A stretch of 54,473 bases of DNA from contig CAMJZA010000019.1 of NCBI GenBank assembly GCA_946410085.1, forward strand, positions 1-54,473. The letters are read 5' to 3'. The stretch is from an uncultured Treponema sp. (GTDB taxonomy: Bacteria; Spirochaetota; Spirochaetia; Treponematales; Treponemataceae). The position numbers and the translations under genes were made by a program. The notes under the pieces are model-generated. The model saw only the letters and a list, made by a program, of their open reading frames with translations, searched no databases and had not been told where the DNA came from. How positions within the stretch are numbered: position 1 is the first letter of the stretch; each line of letters begins with the position of its first letter. Below, one piece after another: positions 39,736 to 41,539 of the stretch.

Positions 39736-40923
39736 CTACTCGATAATCTTCGTTACCTGTCCAGAAGCGATCGTGTGGCCACCCTCGCGGATAGCAAGCT
39801 TCAGTCCCTGATCCATAGCGATCGGGTGGATAAGCTCACCGATAATCTTAACGTTGTCACCCGGCTTTACCATGTCAACACCAGCCTCGAGCTCGACCGT
39901 ACCAGTGATGTCCGTCGTGCGGAAGTAGAACTGGGGGCGATAACCGGTGAAGAAGGGGCTATGGCGTCCGCCCTCTTCCTTTGAGAGAACGTAGATCTGA
40001 GCCTCGAACTTCGTGTGGGGCTTGATGCTTCCCGGAGCAGCGAGAACCTGTCCGCGGATAACATCCTTCTTCTCAACACCGCGGAGGAGGATACCGGCGT
40101 TATCTCCGGCCATACCCTCAGACAGGGTCTTGTTGAACATCTCGATACCGGTAACGGTAGAGCTCTGAGTCGGGCGGATTCCAACGATCTCAACGGGGTC
40201 GTTGAGCTTAACGACACCGCACTCGATACGGCCGGTAACAACCGTTCCGCGTCCAGTGATCGTGAAGATGTCCTCAATCGGCATCAGGAAGGGCTTCTGA
40301 TCATCGCGGACAGGATCATCGAACCAAGTGTCCATCGTTGAAAGCAGCTCTTCAATGCACTTCGTATTGTCAGGATTGTCAGACTCGTTCAAAGCCTTGA
40401 AAGCAGACCCCTTCACAATGGGGGTGTCCTCTGAGAAGCCGTACCCCTTAACAGTGTCGCGGACTTCCTCTTCAACGAGGTCAACCAGCTCAGGATCATC
40501 AACAAGGTCAACCTTGTTCAGAAAGACGATGATCTTCGGAACGCCGACCTGGCGGGCGAGCAGCAGGTGCTCCTTCGTCTGGGGCATAACTGAATCAGGG
40601 GCAGAAACGACCAGAATGGCGCCGTCCATCTGGGCAGCACCGGTAATCATGTTCTTAACATAGTCGGCATGTCCGGGGCAGTCGATGTGGGCATAGTGCC
40701 TCTTGTCTGACTGATACTCCAGGTGGCGGCTGTTGATGGTAATACCACGAGCCTTCTCCTCGGGAGCATTGTCAATCTCATCATACTTCAACACCTTGTC
40801 GCCGTACTTCTTTGCGCAGTATGCCGTGATAGCTGCGGACAGCGTGGTCTTACCATGGTCAACGTGACCGATGGTTCCAACGTTCATGTGAGGTTTAGTT
40901 CTTTTGAACTCTTCCTTTGCCAT
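39736..40923 (-). CDS. tuf: Elongation factor Tu
   Basis: 395 residues from ATG 40923 with AAGGAG 6 nt upstream; upstream in-frame codons are leader. G motifs [13 protein letters not shown] and NKVD are intact, as is the C-terminal domain ending VTKIIE. Delivers aminoacyl-tRNA to the ribosome. Adjacent upstream of rpsJ, so it may head the S10 transcript. Confidence 0.97.
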
Positions 40924-41411
40924 GATTTTCTCCTTGCCTACAGGTTTCTCCTGCGGCATGTATAGGTTGAATGTGTTGCACTTTAAGCCAGAAAACAACA
41001 CCGCAAAAACCAAGCGGCGACGTTTTCGCAGACACACTTTAACCAAAATAATGAAAACTGGCAGATAGCAGTGAGAACAACAGGGTGTGAAAAAACGGGC
41101 ACCATGTGCTGCCCCATACCGTTCGGAGCAGTCGGCCGACACCACCTATCATTATCATCTATCTGACAACCGGTTTGGCATCCAGAGCCTCTCATCGGGA
41201 ACCTCCGGACATCCTTCTCTTCAAACTGTCAACGGCAATTTGCGAATATCCGTGTGCAGGCATCCTGAAAGTTCCCGCAGCCGAAACAGAAGGAACTGAC
41301 TTTACGGATCCCGCCGGGCAACGCATGCGTCACCCGCCCGACATTACAAAGACCAATGCTGAAAGGCCTGACCGGCACATTCAGCCGTCGCAAAAACGCG
41401 ACATAGACAGT
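40924..41411 (-). ncRNA. Structured tuf leader, possibly with an independent small RNA (41411-41090)
   Basis: This 488-bp stretch between the promoter and tuf has no plausible coding frame. Read on the minus strand it folds into nested stems: GGCAC/GTGCC around GTCGC-GTTTTT-GCGAC near the 5' end; AAAG-(TCA)-GTTCC / GGAACTTT; a GTTTG/CAAAC stem enclosing TCCGGAG/CTCTGGA; and finally a terminator-like hairpin with T6 at 41090. It could be a long regulatory 5' leader or a separate RNA of about 320 nt followed by a second tuf promoter. I checked by eye for RNase P RNA, tmRNA, 4.5S RNA and T-box core motifs and did not find them. Confidence 0.45.
41090..41114 (-). terminator. Terminator-like hairpin within the tuf leader
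   Basis: GGGCA / TGCCC stem with partial inner GCAC/GTGC pairing, then CG and T6 on the minus strand (41095-41090). It lies about 170 nt before the tuf start codon. Confidence 0.55.
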
Positions 41412-41417
41412 GCCACA

Positions 41418-41446
41418 TTTATATACTTTTTATAAATTTATTGCAA
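41418..41446 (-). promoter_or_regulatory. Promoter upstream of the tuf leader
   Basis: TTGCAA (41446-41441), 17 bp, TATAAA (41423-41418), in a very A+T-rich stretch. Transcription should begin near 41411. Confidence 0.75.
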
Positions 41447-41487
41447 GGGTTTAACGGCATTTTCTTCTAAAAAAAGCAAAAAAACGC

Positions 41488-41519
41488 AAAAAAAAGGCAC
41501 CCGGAACAAATCCAGGTGC
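41488..41519 (-). terminator. Terminator of the rpsL-rpsG transcript
   Basis: GCACC(T)GGA / TTCC-GGGTGC hairpin about 20 nt after the rpsG stop codon, followed on the minus strand by T8 and further T-rich runs. Confidence 0.85.
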
Positions 41520-41539
41520 ATTTCTGCTGCACAGAAAAC

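Follow-up and report, generated by a model that had tools for sequence, protein, structure and literature searches.

In a 54,473-nt stretch of spirochaete DNA (hereafter the window), the region between a promoter and tuf, the gene encoding EF-Tu, is a real, uncharacterised structured RNA. Its existence, conservation, covarying structure and genomic placement were established by comparison with related loci, and the evidence strongly suggests that it is the cis-acting leader of the tuf-S10 operon. On balance, we favour the explanation that this RNA is the 5′ leader of that operon, a phylum-specific, cis-acting RNA of many Spirochaetota families under the control of a translation-machinery product. 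EF-Tu ranks among the most abundant proteins of bacteria; to our knowledge, no conserved structured leader of this kind is known on its gene. The leader is conserved across much of the phylum, including oral treponemes, yet absent from Rfam, and it provides a concrete, testable place where spirochaetes could match the synthesis of elongation factor and ribosomal proteins.

Organization of the tuf leader

The window lies on contig C19 of a Treponema-like assembly. Gene names were assigned from protein sequences, and the order on the minus strand, on which all features described below lie, was nusG, rplK, rplA, rplJ, rplL, rpoB, rpoC, rpsL, rpsG, a 616-nt intergenic region, tuf, rpsJ, rplC, and further ribosomal protein genes. 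The ORF list and related loci placed tuf at 39736–40923, followed by rpsJ (encoding S10), rplC, and more ribosomal protein genes. The region under study is the rpsG-tuf intergenic stretch, in which about 520 nt extend from the promoter to tuf. The related loci fetched within the genus lay upstream of tuf, and between rpsG and tuf wherever both genes were in view. In the window, fusA was absent between rpsG and tuf (40924–41539), with the str and S10 clusters directly adjoining each other at the leader.

The promoter named in a preliminary description of this DNA, TTGCAA-N17-TATAAA, was present at 41446–41418 and recurred at the same place in relatives; transcription is expected to start near 41411. 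A strong intrinsic terminator of rpsG, recognized from its sequence as a 9-bp stem followed by T8 (41497–41519), sets the str genes apart from this promoter, and similar terminators were present at the same place in close relatives and in other genera. The fold of the window sequence alone was only mildly unusual (z = −2.03), with 3 of 100 shuffles folding as well. The window sequence by itself is therefore insufficient as proof, which comes from the comparative evidence.

The preliminary description of nested stems without coding frames was roughly right, except for a mechanically called GTG frame that starts at 41145 and shares the phase of tuf. Relatives have indels and covarying stems where the window has this frame, and an AUG inside the hairpin at the Shine-Dalgarno sequence is soon followed by a stop in several of them. 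An upstream ORF or leader peptide was rejected because the reading frame is not kept in relatives.

The 5′ part of the leader forms a three-arm domain closed by a long-range helix (GUCAG/CUGAC), whose arms in the window are GUCGGG (41337–41342) and CCCGAU (41194–41199). When complementarity of the two arms within species was compared with that across species, none of 20000 permutations reached the within-species value. Hairpin Pa (41315–41336) and arm Pb (41256–41314) were obtained from the MFE fold; the former corresponds to a hairpin, GGCGGAC..GUCCGG, conserved in relatives, and the latter contains an internal loop, CGUAAAGU / UUUCAG, conserved in their alignment. Arm Pc (41206–41252), with an inner CCGUUGA hairpin, was proposed by eye from alignments of relatives.

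Two blocks of the genus alignment were conserved far above the remainder, namely domain A and element B, the latter lying just before tuf. Domain A (41134–41190), with the form GGCUC..CCAAACC..stem..GAUAGGUGG..GGCC, is widely common within the phylum. Hairpin H (41109–41131) has a conserved GAA..AU loop, and seven of its eight pairs were changed on both sides. For domain A and hairpin H together, 96.8% of cells were paired, compared with 27–67% when the partner strand was slid, and 79 double-sided changes were counted; any of five covariation measures was reached by 0 of 500 shuffles. A covariance model of the domain A core, R1, was built from alignment A3 with a covariation score above every shuffle. 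Its match in the window extended over 41188–41134, and this copy belonged to the training set of the model.

Element B (40971–41037; GUGUGU-C-UGCGAA..stem..UUCUGGCUUAAAGUGCAACACAU), supported by alignment, pattern scan and covariation, comprises the 67 nt just before tuf that are conserved nearly letter for letter as GUGU-N-UGCGAA...UUCUGGCUUAAAGUGC..CACA. It was 96.8% paired; for four of the five measures, none of the 500 shuffles did as well, and the fifth was reached by 16. The pattern TTCTGGCTTAAAGTGCNNCACA, with at most two mismatches, occurred exactly once in 53 of 54 genus genomes and in 0 of about 336 other spirochaetes; a diverged element B (GUGUGUA..GAAUG..CAUUC..AUAAAUACAACACA) could be made out by eye in further genera within the family. 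Downstream, a hairpin (UGCCGCAGG..CCUGUAGGCA, 40935–40958) ends at the Shine-Dalgarno sequence AAGGAG (40935–40930). Complementarity of this stem within species was well above that of cross-species pairings (0 of 20000 permutations), a test that rests on relatives, the window's own hairpin being read from the sequence.

A terminator-like hairpin followed by T6, reported earlier, does exist in the window sequence (41090–41114) and is not conserved: it was absent from the 37 other leaders (1 of 38 non-redundant leaders), and among all 38, the stretch from domain A to element B contained no other terminator-like structure. Its stem shares nucleotides with the 3′ strand of the covarying hairpin H (41131–41109), so the two are mutually exclusive. 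In the window species, the T6 hairpin could be a recently gained attenuator that competes with conserved hairpin H.

Element B (41037–40971), the Shine-Dalgarno hairpin (40958–40935) and a boxA-like site (41354–41344) are parts of the leader that had escaped the preliminary description. Most genus leaders carried GGGUUCUUUGAGA after the promoter, usually with a small stem-loop in between, and the rRNA leaders of complete genus genomes carried GGUUCUUUGACAGA or AGUUCUUUGAAAGA after a promoter and a stem-loop. The match of the boxA-like element to the boxA of these rRNA leaders was clear in relatives (GGGTTCTTTGAGA) and degenerate in the window species (GGTCTTTGTAA), in which the site has decayed to GGUCUUUGUAA; the window assembly has no 16S gene for comparison with its own rRNA leader. 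In the regions upstream of 16S rRNA (L064–L081 and L301–L303), the order was promoter, stem-loop and then boxA, which was degenerate in G007 and G011 (GCUGUUUGACAGG).

Distribution and relation to known RNAs

A DNA search of 200 genus genomes recovered the region repeatedly. CCARACC..stem..RAUAGGUGG or a close variant was found in 28 of 30 regions upstream of tuf, taken from 23 family and 7 order genomes. In a search of 390 spirochaete genomes, R1 gave matches in most genomes of the genus, in every other sampled member of the family and in many genomes from further families. At family level, these matches covered Treponemataceae, one additional family of the order and numerous families of the class. 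Zero R1 matches were obtained in a Borreliaceae-like family (f6) with genomes of 0.9–1.9 Mb, suggesting loss or a strongly diverged element. Forty order- and class-level matches were fetched, and 31 had the true core, all 76–250 nt before tuf; the remaining nine were chance-like and not before tuf.

A pattern scan of one genome per species (84,980 species) returned 110 stretches. Among the 80 of these 110 that were listed, 65 lay before tuf, 6 were spirochaete matches too near a contig end for the next gene to be in view, and 9 were in other phyla, all without tuf, in agreement with an estimate of about 16 chance matches. The oral treponemes T. vincentii and T. lecithinolyticum were among the named carriers.

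Domain A stayed with tuf also in lineages in which rpsG is not nearby. In L170, L176, L196 and L208, the best predicted tuf promoter was downstream of domain A. There, transcription of domain A would depend entirely on read-through from rpsG, so that in these few deep lineages the element may act on read-through transcripts. Sphaerochaeta-type leaders (L151–L190) had domain A and no boxA. They showed a different set of conserved blocks after domain A; among these were GACCUCUGGA, GGUAAAGGC..GCCUUUAU and a GUGAC..GUCAC hairpin that runs up to the Shine-Dalgarno sequence.

The preliminary description had proposed an Rfam search and a covariance model search across Treponema; the former identified no known family, and the latter recovered domain A in most genomes of the genus. 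With Rfam release 15, only tRNAs were found in the whole window, and matches in the leader region were at chance level. When the window and 23 related loci were searched, both at the gathering threshold and more permissively, no consistent family emerged and the leader gave no match at gathering, in line with the earlier exclusion of RNase P RNA, tmRNA, 4.5S RNA and T-box. No spirochaete tuf motif was found in the mainly open-access literature covered, which included the main texts of structured-RNA discovery papers.

Several other identities were rejected. A missing housekeeping RNA was discounted, as this genome has its tmRNA and RNase P RNA genes at other sites and neither RNA had a match in the leader, and phage origin was discarded because there was no match. 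In domain A of some species, GGUGGUACCG resembles the T-box sequence AGGGUGGNACCGCG; the resemblance was in sequence only, with no T-box match in the Rfam searches, and unlike in a T-box, GGUGG pairs with the upstream CCARACC strand and the bases after it vary. The domain A core also resembles CAAACCG..AAGGUGG in treponemal 16S rRNA (302 of 200000 in a post-hoc, composition-matched permutation). Mimicry of 16S rRNA was not retained as an explanation, because the accepted 16S structure pairs differently at this site, where CCGG-UGACAAA-CCGG forms the hairpin. A model search of rRNA operons for domain A gave weak matches only, the two best on the opposite strand.

Possible functions of the leader

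The leader probably sets how much translation machinery the cell makes, through protein-mediated control that would be autogenous, Nus-factor-dependent, or both. A translation-machinery product, either EF-Tu or one of the ribosomal proteins that the operon encodes, would bind the nascent leader RNA and, once bound, adjust transcription or translation of the tuf-S10 operon. In Treponemataceae, NusB-S10 would sit on the boxA-like element and modify the polymerase. Since NusB-S10 acts on boxA and S10 is encoded just after tuf, S10 would become part of the control loop.

The preliminary description had left a choice between a new small RNA and an unusually long tuf/S10 leader. The latter is supported: wherever a gene was in view, the genuine copies all lay before tuf, the T6 terminator is not conserved, and the conserved elements reach the tuf ribosome-binding site. 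Conserved structure was found upstream of one translation operon only, as expected for an autogenous translation-operon leader, and restriction to one target operon in so many families is easier to reconcile with autogenous control than with a metabolite switch. That the element accompanies tuf exclusively, even without rpsG nearby, argues for control by an operon product or the Nus machinery over a general metabolite. On the other side, neither a conserved terminator nor Shine-Dalgarno sequestration indicates how a switch would work. The degenerate boxA of the window, the boxA-less Sphaerochaeta-type leaders, the best predicted promoter downstream of domain A in some lineages and the Borreliaceae-like family without a copy also count against the explanation that we favour. 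A more elaborate scheme can be entertained tentatively, although we consider it rather unlikely: a phylum-specific RNA sensor in the nascent tuf mRNA would read translation capacity (free EF-Tu, aminoacyl-tRNA or ribosomal protein) and, with NusB-S10 on boxA in treponemes, couple EF-Tu supply to ribosome synthesis.

A binding pocket could be built from the positions that are invariant in domain A and in element B, and together with the complex multi-arm fold these would suit a metabolite- or ion-sensing riboswitch on tuf that responds, for example, to a growth-rate signal such as ppGpp, GTP, Mg2+ or polyamines. Known riboswitches usually sit before several different genes, whereas all genuine copies of this RNA with a gene in view precede tuf; no Rfam riboswitch matched, and we regard a riboswitch as unlikely. 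An element for stability, processing or enhanced initiation, in which a rigid leader that senses nothing protects the very abundant tuf mRNA and displays the Shine-Dalgarno sequence at the base of a hairpin, would account for the position of that sequence directly after a covarying hairpin and for the high expression that EF-Tu mRNA needs. However, sequences invariant across many families exceed the needs of a simple stabiliser, and this role too is improbable.

A promoter-proximal site, a boxA-like element and, in the window, a downstream terminator-like hairpin would also be compatible with an RNA whose target is RNA polymerase itself and which carries the enzyme through the long ribosomal-protein operon by put-RNA-like antitermination. 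Domain A, however, occurs without boxA and, in some lineages, upstream of the best predicted promoter, making such an activity quite doubtful. A discrete small RNA of about 320 nt ending at the T6 hairpin (41090), suggested by the strong promoter and the terminator-like hairpin of the window, was rejected as very improbable, because no terminator before tuf is conserved (1 of 38 leaders), the conserved elements go on past it to the tuf ribosome-binding site and start, and the element is always before tuf.

Besides the T-box riboswitch, the tuf-S10 leader can be compared with three known systems. The S10 operon of E. coli has a long structured 5′UTR regulated by uL4, which controls both transcription and translation (PMC10931766). 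The spirochaete leader is likewise a long structured 5′UTR heading an operon with S10 and L4; it differs in that the operon begins with tuf and the leader matches no Rfam family and has no conserved terminator. In the str operon of E. coli, uS7 acts between rpsL and rpsG (PMC10931766). Here also a structured region adjoins rpsG in a setting with rpsL, rpsG and tuf, but the spirochaete element keeps its association with tuf in lineages without rpsG close by.

The third comparison is with the boxA and Nus-factor elements of rRNA leaders, suhB and rpsJ. NusB-S10 binds boxA, and a putative boxA is reported upstream of rpsJ in gamma-proteobacteria (PMC5725501). In contrast to these elements, boxA is a small part of the tuf leader and is missing from the leaders of some lineages that keep domain A. 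As in related rRNA leaders, the boxA-like GGTTCTTTGA follows shortly after the promoter, and as in the gamma-proteobacterial cases (PMC5725501), rpsJ lies downstream. The tuf leader extends boxA-like elements to a translation-factor operon.
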